From: Fibrisoma montanum
Lineage (GTDB): Bacteria; Bacteroidota; Bacteroidia; Cytophagales; Spirosomataceae
Assembly (NCBI RefSeq): GCF_003583365.1
Contig: NZ_QXED01000004.1
Span: 1-64,000 of the forward strand
DNA length: 64,000 nucleotides
Reading direction: 5' to 3'
Of this stretch, positions 5,009 to 39,126 are shown one piece after another. Under the pieces are notes generated by a model, which saw only the letters and a list, made by a program, of their open reading frames with translations, did no database searches and was not told the DNA's origin. A program made the translations under genes and the position numbers. Position 1 is the stretch's first letter. Every line of letters starts with the position of its first letter.

Positions 5009-5014
5009 AGATTC

Positions 5015-6283
5015 TCAAATCAAGAACTCAAATAAATCCGGCTTATCGTTGAGGTATTCAAAGTGAATGCGGGCATCCTGCATACGTATCAGGAGCGGCT
5101 CAAAATCGGCTTTACTTTTCAGTTCTATGCCAACCAGAGCAGGGCCGCGTTCGCGATTCGTTTTCTTAGAATACTCAAAGAGCGTAATATCGTCGTTGGG
5201 ACCGAGTACGTCGCTCAGGAATTCGCGCATAGCACCCGCCCGCTGGGCAAACCGAATGATGAAATAATGCTTCAGGCCTTCGTATAGCAGCGACCGCTCT
5301 TTGATTTCCTCTGTTCGGGTAATGTCGTTATTACCACCGCCGACGAGACAGACCACATTTTTACCTTTGATCTCGTCTTTCAGAAAGTCCAGCGCGGCAA
5401 TAGTAAGCGCTCCTGCCGGCTCGGCTACAATAGCTTCTTCGTTATAAAGCCGCAGAATGGTTGTGCAGACTTTGCCTTCGGGAACCAGCACGACGCGTTC
5501 CAGATTCTGGCGGCACACCTCGAAGGTCATGTCCCCGACGCGCTTAACGGCGGCTCCGTCCACAAACTTGTCAATCTCTTCCAGGGTTACTACGTGGCCC
5601 TCGTCCATCGAAACTTTCATGGACGGTGAACCCAGCGGCTCAACCCCGATCAGCTTGGTTTTGGGGCTCAGCTGGCGAAAAACCGTTGAAACGCCCGATG
5701 CCAGACCGCCCCCGCCAATTGCCATTAGCAGGTAATCAATCTTAAAATTCGAATCTTTGAAGATCTCCAGCCCGACCGTACCCTGACCTTCCATCACCTG
5801 AACGTCGTCGAAGGGGTGGACAAACGTACTGTCGTGCGTATTGACGTATTCGATGGCCGAATGGTACGCATCGTCGTACGTATCACCGGTAAGCACTACG
5901 TCGACAAACTCCTTACCGAACATCCGGACCTGCTTTACCTTCTGGGCGGGGGTAGTCGTCGGCATGAAAATCCGGCCTTTAACACCCATTTTGCGGCAGG
6001 CATAGGCCAGTCCCTGCGCGTGGTTACCGGCGCTCGCACACACGACCCCCTTGGCCAGAGCTTCTTTGGGCAGGCTGGCCATTTTATTGTAGGCTCCCCG
6101 AATTTTATAGGAGCGCACAACCTGTAAATCTTCCCGTTTCAGGAAAATGGTGGCCTGGTACCGATCCGACAGGTTCACGTTTTCCTGGAGGGGCGTGTGC
6201 GTCACGACTCCCCGCAGCCGTTCGGCCGCAAGGTATATATTGTCGAGGTCGGGAAACGTTATTTTCTTCTCTGCTTCTACCAC
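5015..6283 (-). CDS. ilvA: Threonine dehydratase (biosynthetic type, short form)
   Basis: PLP enzyme that deaminates threonine to 2-oxobutanoate, the entry to isoleucine. The PLP lysine lies in SYKIRGAYNK (Lys60), the phosphate-binding loop is the GGGGLASG stretch near 190, and the C-terminal tail from about residue 335 (AGAMREFLSDVLGP) is a single ACT-like regulatory domain. At 422 residues this is the short form with one regulatory repeat rather than the two of E. coli IlvA. Its place in the ilv-leu operon supports a biosynthetic role. A following TTGTTTACT-rich spacer separates it from the methyltransferase gene upstream. Confidence 0.93.
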   Translation of the reverse strand: MVEAEKKITFPDLDNIYLAAERLRGVVTHTPLQENVNLSDRYQATIFLKREDLQVVRSYKIRGAYNKMASLPKEALAKGVVCASAGNHAQGLAYACRKMGVKGRIFMPTTTPAQKVKQVRMFGKEFVDVVLTGDTYDDAYHSAIEYVNTHDSTFVHPFDDVQVMEGQGTVGLEIFKDSNFKIDYLLMAIGGGGLASGVSTVFRQLSPKTKLIGVEPLGSPSMKVSMDEGHVVTLEEIDKFVDGAAVKRVGDMTFEVCRQNLERVVLVPEGKVCTTILRLYNEEAIVAEPAGALTIAALDFLKDEIKGKNVVCLVGGGNNDITRTEEIKERSLLYEGLKHYFIIRFAQRAGAMREFLSDVLGPNDDITLFEYSKKTNRERGPALVGIELKSKADFEPLLIRMQDARIHFEYLNDKPDLFEFLI

Positions 6284-6337
6284 CGCCTGTTTTGTTTACT
6301 ACTGATGACGTTATCCTTCAAATTTACGAAATCTTCA

Positions 6338-6916
6338 TCAGTCTTTTTTTGTCGCTATAATCAAGCCGGTTGACCAGGCTAGTTTCGTCAGAACGATGTC
6401 TTCGCGATCCTCCAGATGAGCTACTAACTGTTGTGCTTTGGCATCATGACCGTCGGGCCAGTTGGGCTGTGGGAGCATGTCGTCAATTACATACAGACCA
6501 CCCGGCTTCAGCATGGCCAGCGTTTCATCGAGTTGTAGATACTTCCCGGCCCAGGTATCGGCGAAAATGAAGTCAAACGTTTCCGTATTCGCATCAATCC
6601 ATTCGGTACCATCCTGACAAACCAGCGTCAGCCGCTTGTCATGGCCTAAAAACCGTTCAGCAATGGCCTGACAGGCAGCATCATTGTCGACCGAAATCAG
6701 CGTCGAATGCTGGTCCATACCATCCAGCAGCCAGGCTGTCGACAGGCCCGTACCAGTGCCTAGCTCCAGAAACGTACCGCTGGGTTTCGACCGCGCCAGC
6801 GTCCGCAGCAGTGAGGCTGTCAGTACGTCGGCGTTCATTGCAAAACCCAGGACGGCTGACGCTGCGACTATGCCCTGATGCGGATCAATGGTTTCGGTGA
6901 TGGTATCGAAAGTCAT
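6338..6916 (-). CDS. Class I SAM-dependent methyltransferase
   Basis: A Rossmann-fold methyltransferase of about 192 residues: motif I FLELGTGTGLSTAWLL, the acidic strand ISVDNDAA, then FDFIFADTWAGKY and GGLYVIDDM. It resembles the O-methyltransferase-like group acting on small molecules, but the substrate cannot be read. I chose the ATG at 6916 (MTFDTITET); a longer frame opens at 6958 but would run through a strong hairpin (6931-6956) that fits better as spacer. It sits between ilvC and ilvA, an unusual tenant of a branched-chain amino acid operon. A role in that pathway is unproven. Confidence 0.8.
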   Translation of the reverse strand: MTFDTITETIDPHQGIVAASAVLGFAMNADVLTASLLRTLARSKPSGTFLELGTGTGLSTAWLLDGMDQHSTLISVDNDAACQAIAERFLGHDKRLTLVCQDGTEWIDANTETFDFIFADTWAGKYLQLDETLAMLKPGGLYVIDDMLPQPNWPDGHDAKAQQLVAHLEDREDIVLTKLAWSTGLIIATKKD

Positions 6917-6930
6917 GCTACGTTGGCTAA

Positions 6931-6956
6931 GGTGCCGGGCTCGAAAACCCGGCACC
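6931..6956 (-). repeat. GC-rich hairpin between ilvC and the methyltransferase gene
   Basis: GGTGCCGGG (6931-6939) and CCCGGCACC (6948-6956) form a perfect 9-bp stem with an 8-base loop, 8 bases beyond the ilvC stop. There is no T tract. It may hold back exonucleases and favour upstream ilvC message, or reduce flow into the distal genes. Confidence 0.65.
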
Positions 6957-6964
6957 ATATGATG

Positions 6965-8008
6965 TTAGCTTCGCTCGGGGCGCAGGCTCCGAACGGCGGT
7001 GCCGGCTTTCCACATTTCCGATTCGCGCAGTTCTTTCAGCTCCTCTTCCAGCTTCTCCCGGTAGTCGGGCTGAGAGTTACGAGTGATCGAAATATTCGCC
7101 TGCTCGCCGGCTTTTACCGAGTTGTAGAGCTGTTCAAAGACCGGCTTTGTGGCATCGCGGAACGGTTTCCACCAGTCGAGAGCACCCCGCTGGGCAGTGG
7201 TTGAGCAGTTGGCGTACATCCAGTCCATACCGTTCTCAGCAACGAGCGGCATGAGTGACTGCGTCAGTTCTTCTACCGTTTCGTTGAAGGCTTCGGAGGG
7301 GCTGTGGCCATTGGCCCGGAGGACTTCATACTGAGCCGCGAAGATGCCCTGGATCGCGCCCATCAACGTACCACGTTCACCGGTCAGGTCGGAGGTAACT
7401 TCTTTGTAAAAATCGGTTTCGAACAGATAGCCTGAACCTACGCCGATACCCATAGCAATGCACTTTTCACGAGCATGACCTGAAGCGTCCTGATAGATGG
7501 CGAAGCTGGAATTCAACCCCTTGCCTTCGACAAACAGGCGACGCAGCGACGTACCGGAACCTTTCGGGGCAACCAGAAATACATCCACATCAGTCGGCGG
7601 AACAATTCCCGTCTGGTCTTTGTACGTTACGCCGAAGCCGTGTGAGAAGTACAGCGATTTGCCGGGTTTGAGGTATGACTTAACCGTCGGCCACAGTTCA
7701 ATCTGGGCGGCATCCGACAGCAGGAAGCAAATGATCGTACCGCGCTCCAGAGCCTCCTCGATTTCGAACAGCGTTTCGCCGGGAACCCAACCGTCGGCAA
7801 CGGCTTTGTCGTACGTTTTGCCTTTGCGCTGGCCGACGATTACGTTGAACCCGTTGTCGCGCATGTTGAGCGACTGACCGGGTCCCTGAACGCCGTAGCC
7901 GATAACGGCAATGACTTCATCTTTGAGTACGTCGAGGGCTTTCTCAAGAGGAAACTCTTCGCGGGTTACTACGTCTTCTTCTACTCCGCCGAAGTTAATT
8001 TTTGCCAT
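6965..8008 (-). CDS. ilvC: Ketol-acid reductoisomerase
   Basis: Isomerises and reduces acetolactate and acetohydroxybutyrate to dihydroxy acids. The N-terminal Rossmann motif is VIGYGVQGPGQ, the cofactor-specificity loop follows at VGQRKGK, and the C-terminal knotted domain carries the metal ligands in the DLTGERGTLMGAIQG stretch and in FNETVEELTQSL. At 347 residues it is a class I (short) enzyme. It follows ilvN by 30 bases. Cofactor preference (NADPH or NADH) cannot be decided from reading alone. Confidence 0.95.
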   Translation of the reverse strand: MAKINFGGVEEDVVTREEFPLEKALDVLKDEVIAVIGYGVQGPGQSLNMRDNGFNVIVGQRKGKTYDKAVADGWVPGETLFEIEEALERGTIICFLLSDAAQIELWPTVKSYLKPGKSLYFSHGFGVTYKDQTGIVPPTDVDVFLVAPKGSGTSLRRLFVEGKGLNSSFAIYQDASGHAREKCIAMGIGVGSGYLFETDFYKEVTSDLTGERGTLMGAIQGIFAAQYEVLRANGHSPSEAFNETVEELTQSLMPLVAENGMDWMYANCSTTAQRGALDWWKPFRDATKPVFEQLYNSVKAGEQANISITRNSQPDYREKLEEELKELRESEMWKAGTAVRSLRPERS

Positions 8009-8038
8009 GACAGACAGTTTTATAAAAGGTTAAACAAA

Positions 8039-8572
8039 TTACAGATAGTATTCCCACTCCGTTTCCGGCAGGTATTCCACGAGCCCTTTTTCGGTTTTTC
8101 CTACCGCGACCCGACCCGATCGTACGAATTCAAGAATGCTGTGCGGTTTGATGTATTCGAAAAAGGTAAAGATTTCCTCTTCGGTCCCCGTCTTCTCGAT
8201 CACGACGTAGTCCAGCCCCCAGTACACCACCCAGGCCTTGTACTGATTGTTGATCGTTTCAATATCCAGTGGCTTTGCGCCCAGTGGTGTTTCAATCTTG
8301 AACAGGGCGATTTCGTTGTACACGACGTCTTCGTTCAGATAGCCGAAGACCGCGAGAACTTCCACGATCTTCCGAATCTGCCGCACCAGTTTCTCTACGG
8401 TCTCCCGCGACTCGTGCTTGATGACGATGGTGAACCGGGACACGCCCTTCCGCTCGGTTTCCGATACGGTGAGGCTTTCGATGTTGATCCGTCGCCGGGT
8501 GAAAATAATTGTGATGCGGTTGAGTAGTCCGATCGTGTTTTCGGTGAATATGCAAATGGTGTAGGTCGTCAT
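8039..8572 (-). CDS. ilvN: Acetolactate synthase small (regulatory) subunit
   Basis: Regulatory partner of IlvB. An N-terminal ACT domain (TYTICIFTENTIGLLNRIT, then the RRINIESLTVS strand) should bind valine or another end product, and a C-terminal domain completes the 177 residues. It lies 4 bases downstream of ilvB, the usual arrangement. With LeuA lacking its regulatory domain, this subunit and the ACT-like tail of IlvA are the visible feedback points in the operon. Confidence 0.94.
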   Translation of the reverse strand: MTTYTICIFTENTIGLLNRITIIFTRRRINIESLTVSETERKGVSRFTIVIKHESRETVEKLVRQIRKIVEVLAVFGYLNEDVVYNEIALFKIETPLGAKPLDIETINNQYKAWVVYWGLDYVVIEKTGTEEEIFTFFEYIKPHSILEFVRSGRVAVGKTEKGLVEYLPETEWEYYL

Positions 8573-8576
8573 CGGG

Positions 8577-10319
8577 CTATTCGAGTCTAATGCTGGCTAC
8601 GCTTGTGCCGGCCGGAACCATAGGAAATACGTTTTCTTCCTTTTCAACAATGACTTCGAGCAGGTACGGCTTGTCGGAGTTGAGGAGCGTGTCAAGCGAA
8701 GCTGACAAATCCTCGCGGTGGTTGCAGGTGTGGCCGTCGATGCCAAAACCCCGGGCAATGGTAATGAAGTCGGGATTCTGTAATTCCACGAACGAATACC
8801 GACGCTCGAAGAACAACTGCTGCCACTGACGTACCATACCGAGGTAATTGTTGTTGAGGATGATCGCCTTAACCGGTAGCTTACTTTGGGCAATCGTACC
8901 CAACTCCTGAATGGTCATCTGGAAGCAACCGTCACCGATGATCGCGATAACCTCCCGGCTCGGATCGCCTACTTTGGCTCCGAAGGCCGCGGGTAAGGCA
9001 AAGCCCATCGTGCCGAGGCCACCCGACGTAATAAGGCTGTTCGGACGCTTGTACTGGTAAAAAGCCGAGGCAATCATCTGGTGCTGACCAACATCGGCAA
9101 CCAGCACGGCTTCACCATTGGTCTTTTTAGACAGCAGGTCGATTACCTCCGGCATTTTAATTTTCTCCGTGGTTGGGGCCAGTGCCGGGCGCTTCACCTT
9201 TTCGTCTTCAATGGCGTCGTATTTCCGGAACTCGTTGCGCCAGACGGTGTGATCGTTCGGATGCACCAATGGAGTCAGGCGGTCCAGCACCTCTTTAGCA
9301 TCTCCTATAACCGGAGCGTGCGCCTTGATTATCTTGTCGATCTCAGACGGGTCAATCTCAATATGAACCACCTTAGCCTGAGGGGCGAATAAGCTGGCAT
9401 TGCCCGTTACCCGGTCGTCGAAGCGCATCCCAATGCCGATCAGTACGTCGCACTCGCTGGTCATTACGTTCGGGCCGTAGTTGCCGTGCATACCGAGCCA
9501 GCCTGCATACAGCGGATGATCGGCCGGGAAGGCCGACTGACCGAGCAACGTCGTGGCGACTGGTATACCGGTTTTCTCGGCAAACGTCAACAGTTCCTTT
9601 TCGGCTTTGGCAATCAGTACCCCGTGACCAACCAGCATGTAGGGCTTTTTGGCGCTGTTGATAAGTTCAGCCGCTTTTTCTACCTGTTCCTGCTTTGGAA
9701 TCAGGCGCGGGCGGTAGCTGACGAGTGTCTGGCAGCGTTGGTACTGAAACGGCCTGGTCATCAGCTCCTGCTGTGCATTCTTCGTAATATCGATTACGAC
9801 TGGTCCCGGCCGTCCCGACTGCGCAATGTAGAACGCTTTGGAAACAATATCCGGAATTTCGTCAGCGTTGGTAACCTGATAGTTCCACTTGGAAATTGGC
9901 ATTGTAACGCCAATTACATCGGTTTCCTGAAACGCATCGGTACCCAGCAGGTTTTTACCAACCTGACCGATCAGGCAAACCATAGGGGTTGAGTCAATCA
10001 ACGCATCGGCAATGCCGGTAACCAGATTGGTCGCTCCGGGGCCTGACGTAACCAGGCATACACCCGCCCTGCCAGTGATGCGGGCATACCCTTCGGCCGC
10101 GTGGGCTGCTCCCTGCTCGTGGCGGACCAGTATGTGGTGGAGCCGGTCCTGAAAGTCGTAAAGCGCATCATAAACGGGCATAATTGCCCCGCCCGGATAG
10201 CCAAAAATTGTTTCAACTCCCTCTGCGACGAGTGACCGCATGAGCGCTTCGGAACCAGTGATCAGCTTCACCTCTTCCGTTATCGTTTCTTTCTCTGGTA
10301 CGACGCTAACCGTTTCCAT
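8577..10319 (-). CDS. ilvB: Acetolactate synthase large (catalytic) subunit
   Basis: Thiamine diphosphate enzyme that joins two pyruvates, or pyruvate with 2-oxobutanoate. The catalytic Glu lies in RHEQGAAHAAEGYAR, the TSGPGATN loop follows, and the ThDP/Mg motif runs from GDGCFQM to ILNNNYLGM. At 580 residues it is a normal AHAS large subunit, and the adjacent ilvN supports a biosynthetic rather than catabolic enzyme. It starts 57 bases downstream of the PIN toxin gene. Confidence 0.95.
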   Translation of the reverse strand: METVSVVPEKETITEEVKLITGSEALMRSLVAEGVETIFGYPGGAIMPVYDALYDFQDRLHHILVRHEQGAAHAAEGYARITGRAGVCLVTSGPGATNLVTGIADALIDSTPMVCLIGQVGKNLLGTDAFQETDVIGVTMPISKWNYQVTNADEIPDIVSKAFYIAQSGRPGPVVIDITKNAQQELMTRPFQYQRCQTLVSYRPRLIPKQEQVEKAAELINSAKKPYMLVGHGVLIAKAEKELLTFAEKTGIPVATTLLGQSAFPADHPLYAGWLGMHGNYGPNVMTSECDVLIGIGMRFDDRVTGNASLFAPQAKVVHIEIDPSEIDKIIKAHAPVIGDAKEVLDRLTPLVHPNDHTVWRNEFRKYDAIEDEKVKRPALAPTTEKIKMPEVIDLLSKKTNGEAVLVADVGQHQMIASAFYQYKRPNSLITSGGLGTMGFALPAAFGAKVGDPSREVIAIIGDGCFQMTIQELGTIAQSKLPVKAIILNNNYLGMVRQWQQLFFERRYSFVELQNPDFITIARGFGIDGHTCNHREDLSASLDTLLNSDKPYLLEVIVEKEENVFPMVPAGTSVASIRLE

Positions 10320-10376
10320 GGATCTACGCGTTTAAATATCGTTTTCTGTTGTTCACTGTGAATAAACCCCCTCGGT

Positions 10377-10766
10377 CTATTTACTCAGGCTTTGGTAGTT
10401 CAACCCGTCTATTTTCTGAAAGTCACTATCGTTCGTAGGCAGCAAGGTAAAGTCATAAACCAGCGCTGTAGCGGCAATAATGGCGTCGGGCAGTTTTACA
10501 CTTCTGTATTGTCGTCGTAAGCGGATGGTCTGAAGAATGACTGGTTCATCAAGCGATAGTACGCTGGAAACTGTAATGAACTCCCGAACACTTGCTTCCA
10601 CTTCTTTGACAACTGCTACCCAACTAAGAAGCTCGATTCTTGTAATGACAGAAATAATCGGGTTCATCTCTACGGTTTCAGCCATTAAATCGAGCTTGTC
10701 AGGGAGTAGCAAACCACTCAGATATTTGCTGTAGGCCGATGTGTCAATTAAATAGGCCTTTCCCAT
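10377..10766 (-). CDS. PIN-domain ribonuclease toxin (VapC-like)
   Basis: A 129-residue single PIN domain. The acidic quartet is intact: Asp8 in YLIDTSAYSKY, Glu45 in TRIELL, Asp94 in KLPDAIIAAT and Asp113 or Asp115 in PTNDSDF, so it should be an active Mg-dependent RNase. Its start overlaps the end of the upstream antitoxin gene by 19 bases, which implies translational coupling. The pair lies between ilvD and ilvB on the same strand and with no visible promoter of its own. Confidence 0.88.
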   Translation of the reverse strand: MGKAYLIDTSAYSKYLSGLLLPDKLDLMAETVEMNPIISVITRIELLSWVAVVKEVEASVREFITVSSVLSLDEPVILQTIRLRRQYRSVKLPDAIIAATALVYDFTLLPTNDSDFQKIDGLNYQSLSK

Positions 10767-11005
10767 TCGTTTCGCATGTCATCTAACTGCTTTTGCATTT
10801 CCAGGCGTTCTTCCAGCGGTAAATGCGCCCACTTGCCGCGAAATCGCGTTAAATCTGGTTTCGTATCTTTGTCAACAAGCCCACCTGTATCTTCTTCAAA
10901 AATTATACGCAGCTTTATCTGTTTACCATTCCATTCCGCGGGTACATCAAAGTGTAAGTCGATGGCTCCGTTTTTTGGCTCAACCGTTTTTTCGATGATG
11001 TTCAT
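10748..11005 (-). CDS. Putative antitoxin partner of the PIN toxin
   Basis: An 85-residue protein upstream of and overlapping the PIN gene, the standard antitoxin-toxin order. The N-terminal half looks beta-rich; the C-terminal half (RFRGKWAHLPLEERLEMQK and then MRNEWER) resembles the toxin-wrapping tails of antitoxins found with PIN toxins in Bacteroidota and Cyanobacteria. I cannot see a classical AbrB, RHH or Phd DNA-binding domain, so autoregulation is uncertain. It begins 32 bases after the ilvD stop. Confidence 0.75.
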   Translation of the reverse strand: MNIIEKTVEPKNGAIDLHFDVPAEWNGKQIKLRIIFEEDTGGLVDKDTKPDLTRFRGKWAHLPLEERLEMQKQLDDMRNEWERPI

Positions 11006-11037
11006 GGCTTCGTTGCTTGTTTATGCATTAACAACGT

Positions 11038-12738
11038 TCATACTTCATCCGTTACACACCCTTCACTGGCCGGCTTCACGTCGCGGATGTATTTGCCAAG
11101 CATACCCCGCGTAAACCGAGGTTCGGGCTTCGTCCACTGACTCCGGCGCTCGGCCAGTTCTTCGTCTGATACGTGTAGGGTAATGTTGCGCGAAACAGCG
11201 TCGAGCGTGATACGGTCGCCGTCTTTAACAAATGCAATCGGGCCGCCTTCGTGCGCTTCGGGGGTAATGTGACCTACCACGAAGCCGTGTGTACCCCCTG
11301 AGAAACGGCCATCAGTAATCAAAGCGACCTTGTCGCCCAATCCGGCACCCATGATGGCGGAGGTAGGCTTCAGCATCTCGGCCATTCCCGGACCACCTTT
11401 AGGGCCCGCGTTCCGGATCACAATGACCTGCCCGGGCAAAATTTCGCCTTTGGCCAGGGCATCGATGATTTCGCCTTCGTGTTCGCAAACTTTGGCAATG
11501 CCGTCAAAGCGTTCGCCTTCTTTACCTGTAATCTTGGCAACACCGCCCTGGGGAGCCAGATTGCCGTATAAAACCTGAATGTGACCTGTTTTTTTGATGG
11601 CCTGCGACAAGGGGAAGATAATCTTCTGCGCGTCGAAGTCGAGATCAGGGGCTTCGGACAGGTTTTCGGCAACAGTTTTGCCCGTTACGGTCAGGCAATC
11701 GCCGTGGATCATGCCCTGCGCGTAGAGGTACTTCATTACCGCCGGAACGCCACCAATGGCCAGCATGTCTTCCATGTAATACTTTCCGCTCGGCTTCAGG
11801 TCGGCCAGTAAAGGCACACGGTCGCTGATAGCCTGAATATCGTCAAGGGTTAAGGAAATGCCCGCTGTCCGGGCAATAGCCAGATAATGCAGCACGGCAT
11901 TGGTCGAACCGCCAAGCGCCATGACTATTGTCAGCGCGTTTTCGAGGGATTCGCGGCTGATGATTTCTCTGGGCGTAATGTTACGCTCGAGCAGTACCTT
12001 CATAGCCGCACCGATCTTCTTGCATTCCTGCTGCTTGCCCTCGTGCGTAGCCGGGTAGCTGCTGCTGAAGGGCAGGCTCAGGCCCATCGCTTCGATGGAA
12101 GAAGCCATTGTATTGGCGGTATACATACCTCCGCAGGCACCCGCACCCGGAATCGAGTTCTGGATGACGCCTTTGTAATCTTCGTCGGATATGTTGTTGG
12201 CGAGCTTCTTGCCCAGGGCTTCAAAGGCCGAAACGATGTCTAATTTCTGACCTTTATAGTGTCCGGACCGGATTGTTCCGCCATATACCATGATACTTGG
12301 CCGGTCGAGCCGTGCCATGGCCATGATAGCTCCGGGCATATTTTTATCACAGCCAACTACTGTCACCACGCCATCGTACCACTGGGCCGCTACCACCGTT
12401 TCGATCGAATCGGCAATTAGATCGCGGCTGGGCAGGGAGTAACGCATGCCGTCGTTTCCGTTCGTCATGCCGTCTGAAACGCCAATGGTGTTGAAGATCA
12501 AACCGACCATATCATTCGCCTGAATGCCCTGCTTCACATAAACCGATAAGCCGTTGAGATGCATATTACAGGTATTACCTTCGTAACCTGTGCTGGCAAT
12601 CCCGATCTGCGGTTTATCCATATCCGCTTCTGTCAAACCAACTCCATAGAGCATGGCTTGGGCGGCAGGATTACTTACTTCCTGGGTCAGAATACGACTG
12701 AATCGGTTTAATTGAATGGTGACGACTTCGGTGTTCAT
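11038..12738 (-). CDS. ilvD: Dihydroxy-acid dehydratase
   Basis: Fe-S dehydratase common to valine, isoleucine and leucine synthesis, here the first gene of the operon. Cluster ligands are visible as Cys in [10 protein letters not shown], in [10 protein letters not shown] and in [15 protein letters not shown]; the C-terminal GRFSGGTHG motif is intact. I place the start at the ATG at 12738 (MNTEVVTIQ, 566 residues). The frame extends to 12777, but a candidate promoter predicts transcription starting near 12770, inside that extension, and the family aligns from about the later Met. Confidence 0.95.
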
Positions 12739-12805: not shown

Positions 12806-12820
12806 GAAATTTTAGGTTAA

Positions 12821-12851
12821 TTGTAGCTTTACTGGCAGGAGATTACCTTTG
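12821..12851 (+). promoter_or_regulatory. Promoter of murQ
   Basis: TTG at 12821-12823, 20 bases, then TACCTTTG at 12844-12851, an exact match to the Bacteroidota TTG/TAnnTTTG pattern. The box ends only 4 bases before the murQ ATG, so the transcript should begin at or next to the start codon. Confidence 0.75.
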
Positions 12852-12855
12852 ATAC

Positions 12856-13653
12856 ATGATTACGGAAACTACTTCGCATTACGATCATTTAGAATCTATG
12901 TCAGTACATGAGCTACTGACGAACATTAATAAGGAAGACAAAACGGTGCCTTTGGCGGTTGAAAAAGCCATTCCTCAAATTGAATCACTGGTCACTCAGA
13001 TCGTAGCGCGAATGAAGGAAGGCGGACGGCTTTTTTATATCGGCGCTGGTACGAGTGGTCGGTTGGGCATTGTCGATGCATCTGAATGCCCGCCTACTTA
13101 TGGCGTTTCACATGATCTGGTAATCGGTCTGATTGCCGGTGGCGATGGAGCTATCCGGAAAGCCGTTGAATTTGCTGAGGATGACCCGGATCAAGCCTGG
13201 AAGGATTTACAGGCGTATCATATCGAAGCCGTCGACACCGTAATTGGTATTGCTGCCTCCGGTCGTACACCCTACGTTATTGGTGGTCTGGATCAGGCCC
13301 GGGCGGCCGGCTGTCTGACCGGCTGTATTGTCTGCAATCCTGGTTCGGCGGTAGCTCAGGCGGCCGAATTCCCGGTTGAGGTGGTTGTTGGTCCTGAATT
13401 TGTGACTGGGAGCACACGCATGAAAGCGGGTACGGCACAGAAACTAGTATTAAACATGGTCTCGACGTCGGTTATGATCCAGTTGGGTCGGGTGAAAGGA
13501 AACAAAATGGTTGATATGCAGCTGACGAACATCAAATTGCAGGACCGGGCTGCGAAGATGGTGATGAGTGAATTAGACGTCAGCCGCGAAAAAGCCGAAG
13601 AGCTGCTGGCCAAGTACGGGAACGTACGGGGTGCCATTGAGGCCCAGCAGTAA
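12856..13653 (+). CDS. murQ: N-acetylmuramic acid 6-phosphate etherase
   Basis: Cleaves the lactyl ether of MurNAc-6-phosphate to GlcNAc-6-phosphate during cell-wall recycling. The SIS fold is clear: LFYIGAGTSGRLGIVDASE with the catalytic Glu at residue 77, a second candidate Glu at 108 in KAVEFAEDD, and the C-terminal EFVTGSTRMKAGTAQK signature. At 265 residues it is somewhat shorter than the E. coli enzyme (about 298), as is common in Bacteroidota. No MurP transporter or kinase lies alongside; an AGE-family epimerase 1.5 kb away may handle related amino sugars. Start chosen because residues 3-16 align with the family N-terminus. Confidence 0.94.
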   Translation: MITETTSHYDHLESMSVHELLTNINKEDKTVPLAVEKAIPQIESLVTQIVARMKEGGRLFYIGAGTSGRLGIVDASECPPTYGVSHDLVIGLIAGGDGAIRKAVEFAEDDPDQAWKDLQAYHIEAVDTVIGIAASGRTPYVIGGLDQARAAGCLTGCIVCNPGSAVAQAAEFPVEVVVGPEFVTGSTRMKAGTAQKLVLNMVSTSVMIQLGRVKGNKMVDMQLTNIKLQDRAAKMVMSELDVSREKAEELLAKYGNVRGAIEAQQ

Positions 13654-13738
13654 ACCAGGCGCGTCTTTGCTTTAGATCATATTAGTCTGGCCGGCTTAAT
13701 ACCAGCAGCCGTTGCCCATAAGCTATTCCTAAACCCAC

Positions 13739-15199
13739 ATGAAACATAAAATCCTGTTGTCGGCCGTCTGGTTAGCCATCACCACTGCCGGTGCTCAATC
13801 ATTACCCGAAATTACAGTCAACCAAAATCAGCGCTATCTACAGACGGCCGATGGAAAGCCGTTTTTCTGGTTAGGTGATACCGATTGGGAGCTGTTTCAT
13901 CGTCTGAACCGGGAGGAAACCGAAGCTTTTCTGGAAACTCGCCGAAAGCAGGGCTTTAACGTCATTCAGGCGGTGGCACTAGCTGAATTTGACGGTGTCC
14001 GTACGCCAAACCGCTATGGAGATGTTCCGCTTGTAAACGAAGACCCGGCAAAGCTGGCCATTACTCCCGGCGCTGATCCTAAAGAACCAGCGCAGTACGA
14101 CTACTGGGACCATGTAGACTATGTCGTGCAGACGGCCAGCCGGAAAGGGTTATACATCGGATTGCTGCCTACCTGGGGCGACAAGCTGACCCGTGACTGG
14201 GGCGCTGGTCCGGTTATTTTCACGCCTGAAAACGCGCGCGTTTACGGACGAACACTGGGGCAGCGGTACGGCCGGTACAATGTTATCTGGATTTTGGGTG
14301 GCGATCGTCCGGCCATTTACAAAGGACGTAAGGAGAACAAAGACAAAGAATTCGACGACCGTCCCATCTGGCGGGCGATGGCAGAGGGTATTGTCGAGGG
14401 AGTTGGGCATGATCCGTTTATTACGTATCATCCACCCGGTGGCCCAAATTCAACCTCGCAGTACGTTCATAACGAACTCTGGCTGGATATGAATGCGTTC
14501 CAGTCTGGTCATGGGTCGCGGGAAATCAAGGCCTGGGATCTGGTTGCGCGGGATCTGGCTATCAAGCTACAAAAGCCAACGCTGGATATGGAGCCGTGTT
14601 ACGAAGATCACCCGGTGAATCCCTGGGATGGCAAATGGACCCGCCAACGCGGCTACTTTTCGGCTTACGATGTTCGTGCTCGTACGTACCGGGGCGTTTT
14701 TGCCGGGGCTTGTGGTGTAACGTATGGTCACCATCAGATCTGGCAATTTGTGAACAAAGCCCTGTACGAGCCGATCAACATTGGCGATACACTCATTCCG
14801 TGGCAACAAGCCGCCAATGCCGAAGCCGCTAACCAGATGCAGTATTTGAAGCGCCTGATGCTGTCAAGACCGTATAGTTCACGGATTGGTGATCAAAGCG
14901 TAATTGCATCGGCGGCTGGTACGTCTTATGTTGACCGCGTCGAAGCTACCCGCGATGCTGATGGAACCTACCTGATGGTGTACTTGCCACAGAATCAGCC
15001 GGTCAGCCTCAATCTGGAGAAGCTGTCCGGAAACCAGATGCGTGTCTGGTGGTACGATCCCCGCACGGGGAAAGCCACATCCGGCGGACTAATGAAAAAA
15101 GTAGGTGCGCAGTCATTTACGCCACCCTCGAACGGGAAAGACTGGGTGCTGGTAGTGGACGATGCATCGAAAAAGTACAAAGCGCCCGGCCAGATCTAA
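13739..15199 (+). CDS. Secreted glycoside hydrolase, DUF4038/GH140-like
   Basis: A 486-residue exported protein with a signal peptide (first 19 residues, ending GAQS). The DUF4038 TIM-barrel begins at the [17 protein letters not shown] segment; [16 protein letters not shown] and the LDMEPCYED segment are typical of this fold, and the C-terminal 90 residues form a small beta domain with [10 protein letters not shown] as in the so-called collagen-binding domain at the end of these enzymes. Characterised members (GH140) are endo-apiosidases acting on rhamnogalacturonan II; the true substrate here is unknown. Its end overlaps the convergent epimerase gene by 4 bases. Confidence 0.8.
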
Positions 15200-32290: not shown

Positions 32291-33820
32291 ATGAACCAGT
32301 TTACCCTCTTGCTCCAGGCAACTACATCACCATCCGATTGGGTCCTGTTTTTCGGACACTTTCACCCGCTGATTGTACACCTGCCCATCGGTTTCTTACT
32401 TGTTGCTGGTATTCTTGAAGCAGGTCGGCGGCTTGGGAAAGTCAGCGTCAGCGATTCGGCCATTACCAACGTATTGTTCTGGTCGGCGGTGAGTGCTACG
32501 GTGGCCTGTCTTTTTGGCTATCTGTTGTCGCTGGGTGGAGGGTACGAACAGGAAACGCTGGATAGCCACATGTGGCAGGGCATCGGGGTAGCGGTATTTG
32601 CCTGGATCGCCTGGGCGGTTAAATCGGACTACGTCGGCGATCGCATCCCGTTCGGGTCGGCTCTTTACCTGCCTGCGCTGGTGGTGGCGATTGTGCTGCT
32701 TGGTACCGCCGGCCACCTCGGCGGCTCGCTGACCCACGGCTCCGACTACCTGACGCAGTACACCCCGGAGCCGTTCCGCACGCTGGCCGGTATTCCGCCC
32801 CGGACGCAGGAAGTCGCCATCAAGCCCATTACGGATGTCAACCAGGCACTGGTTTACGAGCAGATTGTTAACCCGATCTTAAAGACCCGTTGCGTACAGT
32901 GCCATAACGCGGAGAAATCGAAAGGGGATCTGCGCTTTGATACCGCCGAGATGCTGAAAAAAGGGGGTGAAAACGGCCCCGTCTTTGTTGCGGGCAAAGG
33001 GACTGACAGCGAACTGGTGAAGCGGTGCCTGCTGCCCGAAGAGGACGATCATCACATGCCGCCCAAGGGAAAGACTCAGCTTACCGAAGGCCAGATAGCG
33101 CTGCTGACCTGGTGGATTGACCAGGGTGCCCCTTTCGACAAAAAGGTGTCTGAACTCAACGTGAATGACGCTATCAAACCCGTGCTGGCTTCGCTGGGAA
33201 CCGGGGCACCGGCTGGTGGTGCCGGGCTGGCTGCGTCGGGTCCCGCGCCCGTATCGCCCGTTTTGACAATGAAGCTCCCGACCCCTGATCCTAAAGCCGT
33301 CGATGAGTTGAAGCAAACGGGCCTGCTGGTCCTGCCCCTGTCGAAAGAGCAGAACCAGCTGGAAGTCAGTGCTGTCAATGCCAAAGCCTTCAATGATGCC
33401 CAAGCTGCGGTACTGCCCAAACTTTCAAATCAGATTGTGTGGTTGAAGCTTGGTGAAACGGCCATTACGGATGCAGCGCTGGCGCAGATCGCTAAACTTA
33501 AAAACCTACAGAAACTGCATCTGGAGCAGACTAAAGTGACTGACGCTGGTTTGAAGCAACTGAAGGCATTGCCTAACCTGGAGTATCTGAATCTCTATGG
33601 CACGTCCATTACGGACGCGGGGTTGAAAGAACTGGCCGGGCTAAAGAGCCTGAAAACCGTTTATCTCTGGCAAACGAACGTAACGGAGCCGGCGCTTGCT
33701 GAGTTGAAAAAAGCCCTTCCTGACGTCGAATTTGTGGGTGGCATCAGTGAACAGGCGGTGGCTGAATTTACAAAAGCCGGAGCCGCGAATGCACAGCCTG
33801 ACGAGGACAAGAAAAACTGA
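32291..33820 (+). CDS. Membrane-bound c-type cytochrome with leucine-rich repeats (DUF2231-PSCyt1-LRR)
   Basis: A 509-residue three-part protein. Residues 15-150 form a DUF2231-type membrane bundle (FFGHFHPLIVHLPIGFLL, with paired His that may bind haem). Residues 190-290 are a planctomycete-type cytochrome with the haem motif CVQCH at 201-205 and a distal MPPKG methionine. After a Pro/Ala/Gly-rich linker, about residues 340-490 hold leucine-rich repeats (ITDAGLKELAGLKSLKTVYL). It may pass electrons between the membrane and the partner haem protein downstream, while the repeats bind a partner; both are inference. Confidence 0.82.
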   Translation: MNQFTLLLQATTSPSDWVLFFGHFHPLIVHLPIGFLLVAGILEAGRRLGKVSVSDSAITNVLFWSAVSATVACLFGYLLSLGGGYEQETLDSHMWQGIGVAVFAWIAWAVKSDYVGDRIPFGSALYLPALVVAIVLLGTAGHLGGSLTHGSDYLTQYTPEPFRTLAGIPPRTQEVAIKPITDVNQALVYEQIVNPILKTRCVQCHNAEKSKGDLRFDTAEMLKKGGENGPVFVAGKGTDSELVKRCLLPEEDDHHMPPKGKTQLTEGQIALLTWWIDQGAPFDKKVSELNVNDAIKPVLASLGTGAPAGGAGLAASGPAPVSPVLTMKLPTPDPKAVDELKQTGLLVLPLSKEQNQLEVSAVNAKAFNDAQAAVLPKLSNQIVWLKLGETAITDAALAQIAKLKNLQKLHLEQTKVTDAGLKQLKALPNLEYLNLYGTSITDAGLKELAGLKSLKTVYLWQTNVTEPALAELKKALPDVEFVGGISEQAVAEFTKAGAANAQPDEDKKN

Positions 33821-33864
33821 ATCGTTTGAATACCTAGGAGCCCTGTTCGACCCTGTCGGCCCTG

Positions 33865-34076
33865 AGTCATTCGGCACGGTCGAAGGAGATTGCACTCATG
33901 AAGCAGCTGTATGCCGAAGAGAAGGCTGCGTTTAGGCGACGCCCGCAGCAGGCGGTCAGTTTGCTCACTGTGGGCGATACAAAACCCGATTCTCACATTC
34001 CGGCCACTGAATTGGCGGCCTGACAATCGTGGTGAGTGCCGTCATGAATCATAATAAAGTAATTATGAAACGATAG
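33865..34076 (+). pseudogene. Remnant of the C-terminus of a second PSD1 (DUF1553) gene
   Basis: The gap 33821-34152 holds no intact gene, but its frame from about 33865 reads SARSKEIALMKQLYAEE and so on to a TGA at 34021. Skipping one missing base there, the next frame continues TIVVSAVMNHNKVIMKR and ends in TAG at 34074-34076. The combined stretch matches the last 68 or so residues of the PSD1 protein encoded just downstream (34153-37620): 34 of 68 positions identical by hand count, both ending in the same Lys-Arg-stop. So this is the decayed tail of a diverged paralogue; the rest of the gene is gone. Confidence 0.82.
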
Positions 34077-34152
34077 AACGATTCGATAATGAAATTAGGT
34101 TTTACTTCTAACTCGCGCAATAAAAACGTAGTTTTATAACTTATAACCTGCT

Positions 34153-37100
34153 ATGTCTCAACGTATGCCCATCTGGTCTGACATACGATTTAAATACGCA
34201 GCGCTATCAGTAGCCATTGGCGCGTTTGGCGTAACGGTATGGTCATCGTGCAGCCATAGCTCGGTCGAGAAACCGGCCGACGTGGTGACTGCGGAGGTTA
34301 ACCTGCCCGAAAAGGTCGATTATAATCTGCACATCAAGCCCATACTGTCGGATCGCTGTTTTGCCTGCCATGGGCCCGACAAGAACAAGCAGCAGGCAGG
34401 TTTGCGGCTCGATACGCCCGAAGGCGCTTACGAGGCATTGGCGGAAAGCGGTAAAAAGGCGATTGTACCGCACGATCTCGGCGAGAGTGAGGTATTTCAC
34501 CGGATTACCAGCACCGATCCGGAGTATGTGATGCCGACGCCGGAATCGAATCTGAGCCTGAACGCCGAAGAAAAAGCCTTGCTTATCCGTTGGATTGAGC
34601 AGGGTGCCGAATACAAAGAGCATTGGTCGCTCATTGCCCCGACTACACCCGAGTTGCCCAAAGTATCCGACGAAAAATGGGTCAAAAACGACATTGACCG
34701 CTTTGTACTGGCCAAGCAGGAAGCCAAAAAGCTAAGCCATGCAGCCGAAGCCGATAAAGCGACGTTGCTGCGTCGGGTCAGTCTGGACCTGACGGGTTTG
34801 CCACCTACGCCAGCCGAAGTGGATGCGTTCCTGGCCGATACATCCCCGAACGCGTACGAAAAGGTGGTGAATCGGCTGCTGGCCAGTCCGCATTACGGCG
34901 AACGCCAGGCTATTGAGTGGCTCGATGTCGCTCGCTACGCCGATACGCACGGCTATCAGGACGACGGCCTGCGGACAATGTGGCCTTACCGGGACTGGGT
35001 CATCAAAGCATACAACCGGAACCTGCCATTCGACAAGTTCATCACCTGGCAGCTAGCCGGCGACCTGCTGCCAAAGTCTACCAATCCGGATGTGAACCGA
35101 AGCCGGATGATTGCGACCGCCTTTAACCGCAATCACCAGCAAAGCCAGGAGGGTGGTATCGTACCGGAAGAATACCTGGCTGAATACATCGCCGACCGCG
35201 CCAATACGTTCGGGAAAGCCATGCTGGGCCTTACGGTGGAGTGCGCCCGTTGCCACGACCACAAGTACGATCCCATCAGCCAGAAGGATTACTACGCACT
35301 GGGAGCATTCTTCGCTCAGAATAACGAATACGGCCAGATACCATACAACGGTGAACCATCGCCCCACATAACCATCCCGAAGCCGGAAGCGCAGGCCAAA
35401 CTCAAATACATTCGGGAGCAGATCCGATCGGTAGATGGCCAGCTGGCTACTGAAATGAAAGCGGGTGCCCGGCAGCGGTTCAACTCCTGGCTGACACAGG
35501 CGCAGCGCGATCCGGCCAAAGCGCTGATGCCCGGCAATCAGGATCTGATCGTTTACGTTCCGTTTGACCAGAGCAAGGACGTACCAGCCGATAAGCCAAA
35601 AAAGGAGGACAACAAAACGAAAGAAGCGGCTCAAAAAGCAGCAAAAGCAGCTAAGAAAGAGGATGAGGTAGCAAAGAAACCGCGTGTTCGCCGGCTCTTC
35701 CAGAACCTGGCCAACGATACCATTCCGCTCGAAACCCATGGCGATCTGGACTTCCCGGTTCCGTACGTGAAAGGCCCGGTTGGTCAGGGAGTGAAGCTGA
35801 TTGGCGAAAGCTACCTGGAGTTGAAGTGGGTCAACAGTGCCAAAAAGCCGGAAAAAGACGAAAAATACAAGCAGCCAACCTGGTTTGAACGAAACGAGCC
35901 CTTCACGGTTAGCTTGTGGGTCAACGTGCAGGACCCTAAGCTGAAAGGTCCGCTTTTTAACCGGAACATGGGCCCCTTCAATGGCTTCCGGGGCTACGAA
36001 TGCGTTCGGCTGGAGGATGGCCGCCTGGCGTTTCGGTTCAGCTACGTCTGGCCCGACGATGCCATCGACGTGGAAACGCTGGACAAGCTGCCGCTTAACC
36101 GCTGGGCGTTGCTGACCATGACCTACGACGGAACCAGCCGGGCGTCGGGTATGCACATCTACGTAAACGGGCAGCCGGCCCGTACGCGGATCATGACCGA
36201 TAACCTGACGCAGAGTACCGTTTGGGGTAAAGAAGGCTCAAGCTGGGGGGCTGGGGCTCCGAACCTGGCCATGGGCCAGCGCCACGATTATAACTTTAAA
36301 GGCTACTCAATTGACGAACTGCGCGTTTACGCCCGGAAGCTAACTCCGCTGGAAGTTCAGGGTCTATATACGCAGCAAAATCACCTGCTTCAGGCGCTTA
36401 AAACACCCAGCCGGTCACCAGCCCAGCAAACGGCTCTGTTCGACTACTACGTAACTAACGTTGACCGACCAGCGCAGGAACGCCGGCTAACCCGGGAGCA
36501 GGAGCTGGGTGAAGAAACCCGGGTGCTGAGCGAACAGATCGACGTCATGGTGATGCGGGAGCGTAAATACCCACGGCCTACCTTTATTCTGAAGCGTGGG
36601 GCTTATGATGCGCCCGGCGATCCGGTTGGCCCTGATACGCCTGACAAGTTCTATAAAATCCCCGACAACCTGCCGAAGAACCGGTTGGGTCTGGCTCAGT
36701 GGTTATTACTGCCCGAAAATCCGCTGTTTGCCCGGGTTATGGTAAACCGGTTCTGGCAGCACTATTTTGGGCAGGGGCTGGCTAAAAACAGCGATGACTT
36801 TGGTAACCAGGGGGCCTTACCAACCCACGCCGAGTTGTTGGACTACCTGGCCGTTCAATTTCGCGAGAGTGGCTGGAATGTGAAGGCCATGCAGAAGCTG
36901 ATCGTGATGTCAGCAACGTACCGGCAGTCGTCGGCGGTATCGGAGAAAGCCCGCGAATTGGATCTCGACAACTCGTTCCTGACGCGTGGACCGAGCTACC
37001 GGATGTCGGCGGAGCAGGTTCGCGACAATGCGCTGGCCGCGAGTGGCCTGCTTACCCGAACCATTGGCGGACCCAGTGTGCATCCGTATCAGCCGGCCGG

Positions 37101-37620
37101 GATCTGGGAAGCGTTAGCCACCCGTAATGCCGTGAAGTACGTTCAGAACCACGGCGACAGCCTGTACCGCCGGTCAATGTACACGATCTGGAAGCGGAGT
37201 TCGCCCCCACCGATGATGCTTAACTTCGACGCCAGCGAACGCCATTTCTGCACGGTGAAGCGTCAGAAAACTAGTACGCCCTTGCAGGCGCTGGTAACAC
37301 TCAATGACCCGCAGTTCGTCGAAGCGGCCCGGGTGCTGGCCCAGCGGGGGCTGGCGCAGGGGCAAACCGGCGACGTCTTCATCAGTAATGCCTTCAAAGC
37401 GGTAGTAAGTCGTCCGGCCCGGCCGGCGGAGATGAGTTTGATGAAGCAGTTGTACGCCGACGAATTGGCCGATTTTCGTCGTAATCCTAAACGGGCCAGT
37501 GAGTTGCTCTCCGTAGGGGAGTACCCCGTTGATAAAAAACTAAGCCCGGAGGAGCTGGCAGCCTGGACGGTAGTTGCCAGCACCATCATGAACGTTGACG
37601 AAGCGATTATTAAACGATAG
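34153..37620 (+). CDS. PSCyt1-PSCyt2-LamG-PSD1 protein (DUF1549/DUF1553), two haem motifs
   Basis: An 1155-residue exported protein of planctomycete type. After an N-terminal hydrophobic stretch with WSSCSHSS (a lipobox-like site), PSCyt1 carries CFACH at 69-73. PSCyt2/DUF1549 follows (LLRRVSLDLTGLPPTPAEVD, AIEWLDVARYADTHGYQDD) with a second haem motif CARCHDHKYDP at 364. A Lys-rich linker near residues 475-515 leads to a concanavalin/LamG-like module (about 580-750). PSD1/DUF1553 fills the rest (NRFWQHYFGQGLAKNSDDFG, PLQALVTLNDPQFVEAARVL). The family is paired with DUF1501 proteins, as here. Its biochemical activity is not established; links to polysaccharide breakdown have been proposed. 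Confidence 0.9.
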   Translation: MSQRMPIWSDIRFKYAALSVAIGAFGVTVWSSCSHSSVEKPADVVTAEVNLPEKVDYNLHIKPILSDRCFACHGPDKNKQQAGLRLDTPEGAYEALAESGKKAIVPHDLGESEVFHRITSTDPEYVMPTPESNLSLNAEEKALLIRWIEQGAEYKEHWSLIAPTTPELPKVSDEKWVKNDIDRFVLAKQEAKKLSHAAEADKATLLRRVSLDLTGLPPTPAEVDAFLADTSPNAYEKVVNRLLASPHYGERQAIEWLDVARYADTHGYQDDGLRTMWPYRDWVIKAYNRNLPFDKFITWQLAGDLLPKSTNPDVNRSRMIATAFNRNHQQSQEGGIVPEEYLAEYIADRANTFGKAMLGLTVECARCHDHKYDPISQKDYYALGAFFAQNNEYGQIPYNGEPSPHITIPKPEAQAKLKYIREQIRSVDGQLATEMKAGARQRFNSWLTQAQRDPAKALMPGNQDLIVYVPFDQSKDVPADKPKKEDNKTKEAAQKAAKAAKKEDEVAKKPRVRRLFQNLANDTIPLETHGDLDFPVPYVKGPVGQGVKLIGESYLELKWVNSAKKPEKDEKYKQPTWFERNEPFTVSLWVNVQDPKLKGPLFNRNMGPFNGFRGYECVRLEDGRLAFRFSYVWPDDAIDVETLDKLPLNRWALLTMTYDGTSRASGMHIYVNGQPARTRIMTDNLTQSTVWGKEGSSWGAGAPNLAMGQRHDYNFKGYSIDELRVYARKLTPLEVQGLYTQQNHLLQALKTPSRSPAQQTALFDYYVTNVDRPAQERRLTREQELGEETRVLSEQIDVMVMRERKYPRPTFILKRGAYDAPGDPVGPDTPDKFYKIPDNLPKNRLGLAQWLLLPENPLFARVMVNRFWQHYFGQGLAKNSDDFGNQGALPTHAELLDYLAVQFRESGWNVKAMQKLIVMSATYRQSSAVSEKARELDLDNSFLTRGPSYRMSAEQVRDNALAASGLLTRTIGGPSVHPYQPAGIWEALATRNAVKYVQNHGDSLYRRSMYTIWKRSSPPPMMLNFDASERHFCTVKRQKTSTPLQALVTLNDPQFVEAARVLAQRGLAQGQTGDVFISNAFKAVVSRPARPAEMSLMKQLYADELADFRRNPKRASELLSVGEYPVDKKLSPEELAAWTVVASTIMNVDEAIIKR

Positions 37621-37671: not shown

Positions 37672-39126
37672 ATGGACATTCAGGACGAAATCCACGATCA
37701 GCTTAGCCGCCGGACTTTTCTGGGTCAGAGCAGCGCCGGTTTAGGTACCATTGCGCTGGCGTCGCTTTTAAATCCTAAAAACCTGTTTGCGGGGGCCTCG
37801 GCTCCCGGCGAAATGCCGGAATTGGGTAAACCGCACTTTGCGCCCAAGGTGAAACGCGTAATTTACCTGTTCCAGAGTGGGGCGCCCTCGCAGCTGGAAT
37901 TGTTCGATTACAAGCCTAAGCTGGAAAGCATGTGGGGCAAAGACCTGCCGGAGTCCGTGCGGAAAGGACAGCGGCTGACCGGTATGACAGCCGGGCAAAG
38001 CCACTTCCCGCTGGCTGCATCCCGCTATAAATTTGCGCAGTACGGTCCCAGCCGGATGTGGATCAGTGAGTTGTTGCCTTATACCTCCCGCATTGTCAAC
38101 GACCTGACGTTTATCCGGTCGATGCATACAGAAGCAATCAACCACGACCCGGCCGTTACGTTCTTCCAGACGGGTAGTCAACAGGCCGGCCGGCCGAGTT
38201 TTGGGTCATGGATTAGCTACGGCCTTGGGTCGGACAACCAGAACCTGCCGGCTTTCGTGGTGTTGCTGTCGAAGGGGCGTGACGGCGATCAGCCCCTGTA
38301 TGCGAAGCTATGGAGCAATGGCTTTCTGCCTTCCGTGCATCAGGGGGTTGTGTTCCGGTCGGGGCCAGATCCGGTTTATTATTTGAACAATCCGCCGGGC
38401 ATTGATAAAGCCAGTCGTCGGCGGATGCTCGATTATCTGGCCAAAATGCATCAGGAGCAATATAAGCACGTACTGGATCCGGAAATCAATAACCGCATGG
38501 CCCAGTATGAAATGGCTTACCGGATGCAGACCTCCGTGCCCGAAACGCTCGACATCTCGAAGGAGCCCGACTACATCTTCGATATGTACGGTCCTGAATC
38601 GCGCAAACCCGGTACGTTTGCGGCTAACTGCCTGCTGGCCCGGAAACTGATTGAGAAGGATGTAAAATTTGTGCAGCTTTACCACCAGGGCTGGGATCAG
38701 CACGGCAACCTGCCCAACGACATTAAAATTCAGACGAAGAGCGTTGACCAGCCCTCGGCCGCCCTGATCCTGGACCTGAAGCAGCGGGGTTTGCTCGACG
38801 ACACGCTGGTGATCTGGGGGGGAGAGTTCGGCCGAACGAATTATTCGCAGGGTAAACTGACTAAAGATAATTACGGACGCGACCACCACCCCCGTTGTTT
38901 CTCGATCTGGATGGCAGGTGCCGGCATCAAAAAAGGGATGGTCTATGGCGAAACGGATGAATTTGGCTACAACATTGCCAAAGACCCCGTCCATGTCCAT
39001 GATTTTCAGGCAACGGTACTGCACCTGCTGGGGATGGACCACGAGAAATTAACCTTCAAACATCAGGGCCGTCGCTACCGGCTGACGGACGTTCATGGTA
39101 AGGTCGTTAAGCCCCTGTTAGCCTGA
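37672..39126 (+). CDS. DUF1501 family Tat-exported protein
   Basis: A 484-residue protein with a Tat signal (SRRTFLGQSSAGLGTIALAS) and the sulfatase/alkaline phosphatase-like DUF1501 fold: VIYLFQSGAPSQLELFDYKP near the start, NHDPAVTFFQTG, VKFVQLYHQGWDQHGNL, VIWGGEFGRTNY and GRDHHPRCFSIWMAG with conserved Asp and His residues that resemble a metal site. It follows the PSD1 gene by 51 bases and closes the cassette. DUF1501 and PSD1 proteins occur as pairs in Planctomycetes, Verrucomicrobia and Cytophagales; the reaction is unknown. Confidence 0.9.
   Translation: MDIQDEIHDQLSRRTFLGQSSAGLGTIALASLLNPKNLFAGASAPGEMPELGKPHFAPKVKRVIYLFQSGAPSQLELFDYKPKLESMWGKDLPESVRKGQRLTGMTAGQSHFPLAASRYKFAQYGPSRMWISELLPYTSRIVNDLTFIRSMHTEAINHDPAVTFFQTGSQQAGRPSFGSWISYGLGSDNQNLPAFVVLLSKGRDGDQPLYAKLWSNGFLPSVHQGVVFRSGPDPVYYLNNPPGIDKASRRRMLDYLAKMHQEQYKHVLDPEINNRMAQYEMAYRMQTSVPETLDISKEPDYIFDMYGPESRKPGTFAANCLLARKLIEKDVKFVQLYHQGWDQHGNLPNDIKIQTKSVDQPSAALILDLKQRGLLDDTLVIWGGEFGRTNYSQGKLTKDNYGRDHHPRCFSIWMAGAGIKKGMVYGETDEFGYNIAKDPVHVHDFQATVLHLLGMDHEKLTFKHQGRRYRLTDVHGKVVKPLLA

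Follow-up and report, generated by a model that had tools for sequence, protein, structure and literature searches.

Decayed end of a probable second PSD1 gene in front of psdA in Fibrisoma montanum

Gene remnants in bacterial spacers have been identified through intact orthologues in relatives, in Rickettsia (PMC2374718) as well as in a survey of prokaryotic pseudogenes (PMC522871). The gene end described here (hereafter the stub), located upstream of a PSD1 gene of Fibrisoma montanum, is an unusually well documented case of this already known kind of feature. As in the earlier examples, a short decayed piece is found where a relative keeps the whole gene, and one gene, named here psdB, appears to have been eroded repeatedly in several lineages. 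The stub differs from remnants of the Rickettsia type in that its host is a free-living member of the Spirosomataceae and not a reduced intracellular genome, and in that one gene end remains, beside the probable promoter of the neighbouring gene. PSCyt/PSD genes have been discussed in Verrucomicrobia, with no known function (PMC5615132), and DUF1553 (PSD1) is mentioned in a planctomycete microarray study. Like the PSCyt/PSD1-DUF1501 pairs (PF07583, PF07587, PF07394; PMC5615132), psdB and its neighbour psdA carry PSCyt1, PSCyt2, LamG and PSD1 domains (from Pfam, for psdA of the window) and adjoin a DUF1501 gene. Unlike those pairs, the cassette studied here has a cytochrome-leucine-rich-repeat gene (cytLRR) and would ancestrally have held two tandem PSD1 paralogues. 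In the literature searched, which left most subscription papers outside, no report of the psdB-psdA pair or of its relics was found.

The window, that is, the whole 64,000-nt stretch of DNA that was analysed, comes from an assembly of 7.79 Mb in 39 contigs, and Fibrisoma was represented by two genomes, that of the window species and that of F. limi (G001, and L050 with the same loci). The cassette consists, all on the plus strand, of a beta-propeller gene, a glycosidase-like gene, cytLRR, the gap that contains the stub, psdA and the DUF1501 gene (Table 1). According to Pfam, the cytLRR product combines a DUF2231 membrane part, a PSCyt1 cytochrome and leucine-rich repeats. The sister species F. 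limi has a single PSD1 gene and a short gap; its cytLRR and DUF1501 genes are 91-92% and 98% identical, respectively, to those of the window. From the same comparison, the start of psdA is probably at 34165 (MPIWSDIRF, the same in F. limi) and not at 34153.

Table 1. Features of the psdA cassette in the window, and places of the piece of about 55 nt in related loci
Feature	Location	Strand	Basis
cytLRR gene, left neighbour of the slot	32291..33820	+	ORF, Pfam
Presumed deletion junction, cytLRR stop to surviving psdB end	33821..33855	.	inferred
Stub: 3′ end (73 codons and stop) of a PSD1 gene, most likely psdB; one frameshift	33856..34076	+	alignment against shuffles
Frameshift site within the stub	34021..34022	+	alignment picks up in the other frame at 34023
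psdA leader	34077..34164	+	box before psdA in relatives; F. limi alignment
psdA, intact PSD1 gene	34153..37620	+	ORF, Pfam
Exchanged psdA centre with LamG, between the end of PSCyt2 and the start of PSD1	35272..36690	+	limits approximate
C-terminal part of psdA matching the stub	37399..37620	+	alignment
DUF1501 gene, right neighbour	37672..39126	+	ORF, Pfam
Piece of about 55 nt, in intact psdB	L124:9008-9066		
Piece of about 55 nt	L133:7847-7900		
Piece of about 55 nt	L174:1549-1601	-	
Piece of about 55 nt	L008:2497-2553		
Piece of about 55 nt	L067:7049-7107		
Piece of about 55 nt	L177:1468-1513	-	

When the last 75 residues of the psdA protein were aligned with the 332-nt gap (33821-34152) by a frameshift-aware protein-to-DNA method, a score of 153 was obtained, against a mean of 23 and a maximum of 31 for 60 shuffled gaps. 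The alignment covers 33856-34073 in 73 columns, 35 of them identical to psdA residues 1083-1155, and the stub and psdA both terminate in Lys-Arg-stop (TAG at 34074-34076 in the stub). With a Spirosoma psdB tail as query the homology begins slightly earlier, at 33850; the psdB tail of the Spirosoma genome G088 scored 133 against the gap, compared with a maximum of 35 in 400 dinucleotide-preserving shuffles. The original prediction, made from raw sequence alone, had read in this gap a PSD1 C-terminus with the Lys-Arg-stop end and a break of frame at about 34021-34023, and both readings were borne out. It had the stub begin at 33865, about 9 nt inside the homology, had counted 34 identities in 68 residues where we find 35 in 73, and had matched the stub to 37411-37617 of psdA, of which the end holds and the start moves to 37399 (counterpart 37399-37617). 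The TBLASTN comparison that it had proposed as a check also gave a significant match, with no frameshift allowed (27/55 identities, E = 6e-14 in a tiny search space), and the stub was recovered independently by a search of the whole assembly (E = 1e-7). Since only 73 of about 1050-1155 codons are left, with a frameshift among them, no full product can be made. Its homology to a protein family is significant, and a relative keeps the gene intact at the corresponding place (locus L124 of G088). These are properties of a pseudogene, and the stub most likely does nothing at present.

A family search with the translated stub revealed several genomes carrying two PSD1 genes in a row. In G088, a one-contig genome of 5.83 Mb from the genus that includes Spirosoma, the order at L124 is beta-propeller gene, cytLRR (4469-6013), psdB (6050-9193), psdA (9254-12715), DUF1501 (12816-14267) and a mechanosensitive channel gene. 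Thus, the relative predicted to keep an extra PSD1 gene between cytLRR and psdA exists: its slot is occupied by a full, intact gene, starting 36 nt past the cytLRR stop and encoding 1047 residues with the domain order PSCyt1-PSCyt2-LamG-PSD1, and the gene order is otherwise that of the window. Tandem psdB-psdA genes are also present at L004, L005/L122 (G053), L123 (G033), L125 (G016) and L200 (G042). Directly behind cytLRR, psdB is found in only two other genomes, G088 and probably G007, in which cytLRR-psdB stands at the end of one contig, with DUF1501 and a fragment of psdA on another. A search with the centre of the gene only identified psdB in 6 of the 222 Spirosomataceae genomes, belonging to five genera, with a clear gap in scores (at least 380 bits for psdB, at most 231 for the rest), and in one of 291 genomes that sample the order. 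All psdB sequences, including the G007 copy, are united in the tree of the central segment and separated there from every psdA (support 100), which argues that psdB is an old paralogue of psdA; that it was then mostly lost would be the simplest reading of its distribution. Repeated transfer could possibly also produce so patchy a pattern, but it alone would not explain the relics described below.

Using the intact G088 psdB tail as query, decayed psdB ends were found in the gaps of other Spirosoma loci (L133, L006/L067/L173 and L008, with weaker cases in L014/L178), and the L172 gap contains the last 11 psdB codons and the stop. At the DNA level the L133 relic is identical at 46 of 56 bases (score 66, shuffled maximum 32), with 37/48 for L067, 41/60 for L174, 40/57 for L008 and 24/28 for L172, and each of these five exceeded all 500 shuffles of its own gap. 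Relative to G088, the distance from relic to psdA ATG differs by -9 nt in L133 and by +22 to +26 nt in L178, L067 and L173; alignment positions give about -2 for L008 and +50 for L172. Each relic outside the window is short, and the case depends on the agreement of several of them in both position and sequence. That other Spirosoma carry decayed ends at corresponding distances from psdA indicates that psdB was lost repeatedly and that the window stub belongs to the resulting series. In this way a prediction from raw sequence was confirmed, and one odd gap led to multiple losses of one gene, whose intact, half-decayed and vanished states coexist within one bacterial family. In L133 and L172 unrelated genes stand between cytLRR and the relic, so that psdB would there have been partly replaced. 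The F. limi gap was considered as an additional relic and rejected as weak, with no more than a trace of psdB (22/41 bases ahead of the stop, p 0.002 ungapped and p 0.22 gapped). The 3-kb gaps of Rudanella were likewise rejected as psdB remnants, being filled by an unrelated esterase-like gene, and the apparent psdB N-terminal matches in them were taken as reading-frame overlap with that gene.

Unrelated genes are taken up by the slot between cytLRR and psdA in L133, L174, L172, L127 and L003. Its contents include two minus-strand genes in G142 and likewise in G135, a 6.5-kb stretch with several genes in G156 and the esterase-like gene in Rudanella.

The parentage of the stub was approached by phylogeny, divergence and position. 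Trees of the 73-column tail bring long branches together, and the psdB tails themselves do not form one clade; an approximately unbiased (AU) test rejected neither the grouping with the window's own psdA (p 0.67) nor that with psdB (p 0.65). A 73-residue tail being beyond assignment by phylogeny, position decides between the two, and the stub lies between cytLRR and psdA on the same strand, as psdB lies between psdA and cytLRR or its replacement. The centre that sets psdB apart is missing from the stub. Instead of coming from psdB, the stub might be what is left of a decayed tandem copy of the window's psdA, or of an imported psdA-type gene. The tail tree is compatible with this, the best-scoring matches are psdA tails of other genera (e.g. 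L127 and L122), and the exchanged centre of the window psdA (see below) attests to contact between this gene and foreign psdA DNA. However, the nucleotide identity of the stub is 0.58 to Fibrisoma psdA and 0.59 to psdA of some other genera, and the differences from psdA fall on codon positions 1, 2 and 3 in the numbers 31, 19 and 43. Pure decay would give an even spread, from which these numbers depart at p of about 0.01 by our own arithmetic; therefore, a large part of the divergence accumulated while the sequence was still constrained by coding, before the gene died. Equal distance and coding constraint together argue that the stub is not a fresh copy, and the slot of relatives held psdB, whose decayed ends are found there. 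We regard a psdA-type origin as unlikely, though a duplicate of the own psdA keeps a share; coding-constrained divergence and position favour psdB as the parent. The genome's other PSD1 gene (contig C3) was rejected as a source, its tail being only 24% identical to the psdA tail, and a collection of plasmids gave no match. As to the earlier claim of a diverged paralogue and not a fresh copy, the codon bias and the equal distances speak for it, short of proof given the two AU values. The claim that the cassette once had two PSD1 genes is strengthened by the position in the slot and by the relics elsewhere. The claim that a deletion removed almost all of one of them names the simplest course, a single large deletion, and not an observed event.

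Arrival of the tail fragment by itself, through recombination or transfer, into a slot that never held the full gene is very improbable: unrelated genes do enter the slot in relatives, but the stub has the orientation and the order of frames that the missing gene would have had, follows cytLRR immediately and stops as far ahead of psdA as the intact G088 psdB does, and no trace of a mobile element was seen at it. Chance resemblance in an ordinary spacer is refuted by the scores against shuffled gaps.

The history that we hold to be highly probable, that of a psdB gene deleted in place, would start from the order cytLRR-psdB-psdA-DUF1501, with psdB as an old psdA paralogue of the same domains and its own type of centre, surviving in few Spirosomataceae and lost in most. 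In this Fibrisoma lineage a deletion would have removed psdB from close to its start up to a point some 75 codons short of its end. The remaining end, kept in front of the probable psdA promoter, has decayed and acquired a frameshift. The motif TAnnTTTG is the -7 element of Bacteroidota promoters. As a promoter-like box it occurs within 110 nt before the psdA ATG in 33 of the 43 genomes without adjacent psdB, 4.0 being expected from shuffles, at 29-57 nt from the ATG and just behind the place of the psdB stop. The psdA leader of the window has TAGTTTTA at 34129-34136, which is the box with one mismatch, and the F. limi box is TAGTTTTG. Deletions reaching further right would therefore remove the box and would be predicted to silence psdA; the tail probably outlived its gene because the psdA promoter starts directly behind the psdB stop. 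A spacer before a gene can thus be worn-down coding sequence. In these PSD1/DUF1501 cassettes of unknown function, one of two paralogues is dispensable.

Reuse of part of such a stub is also hinted at. Spirosoma gaps without psdB repeatedly contain one and the same piece of about 55 nt from the 3′ end of that gene, kept in at least five lineages (L133, L174, L008, L006/L067 and L177). Between these its pairwise identity is 0.50-0.69 (the close pair L067/L006 excluded), compared with 0.31-0.44 at fourfold-degenerate sites of flanking genes in the same lineage pairs, a comparison subject to selection bias, as the block was chosen for being best aligned. Identity above that of fourfold-degenerate sites suggests constraint on a non-coding stretch. 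The same piece emerged from a pairwise upstream comparison made without the G088 query and with the cytLRR coding sequence removed. Furthermore, a 2-nt deletion relative to intact psdB, dependent on the alignment, is common to L133, L174 and L008 and suggests that the copy of their common ancestor was probably already broken. Tentatively, the Spirosoma piece might be a part of dead psdB kept as a working non-coding element, e.g. an operator, some 165-265 nt ahead of psdA. A search for further copies in 36 genomes gave only matches at chance level (best E about 0.004 per genome), apart from a weak recovery of its known places in G159 and G135. Rfam had no match, whether in five loci at gathering scores or, with E up to 1, in the surroundings of the gap. 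This DNA word is absent from the window stub, for which the reading as a plain remnant therefore stands.

The intact psdA of the window is itself a chimera by sequence comparison, its middle exchanged since the split from F. limi. The flanks of the two genes are 92% identical and the centres 40%; the next most divergent centre in any psdA pair whose flanks agree at 88-98% still shows 76% identity. In the trees, the flanks fall with F. limi (support 100) and the centre with Rudanella, Runella and G156 (support 99). A derivation of the exchanged centre from psdB was rejected, since it groups with psdA of those three, and the exchange showed no link with psdB. In these PSD1/DUF1501 cassettes, the lectin-like middle domain of psdA can thus be exchanged. 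In Spirosoma telluris (L079:5437-10578) cytLRR is broken into two and psdA into three reading frames, through either real decay or assembly errors. In G016 (L125:5836-12474, minus strand) the psdB flanks join the genome's own psdA in the flank tree while the centre remains of psdB type, which suggests gene conversion of the ends between tandem psdB and psdA copies.
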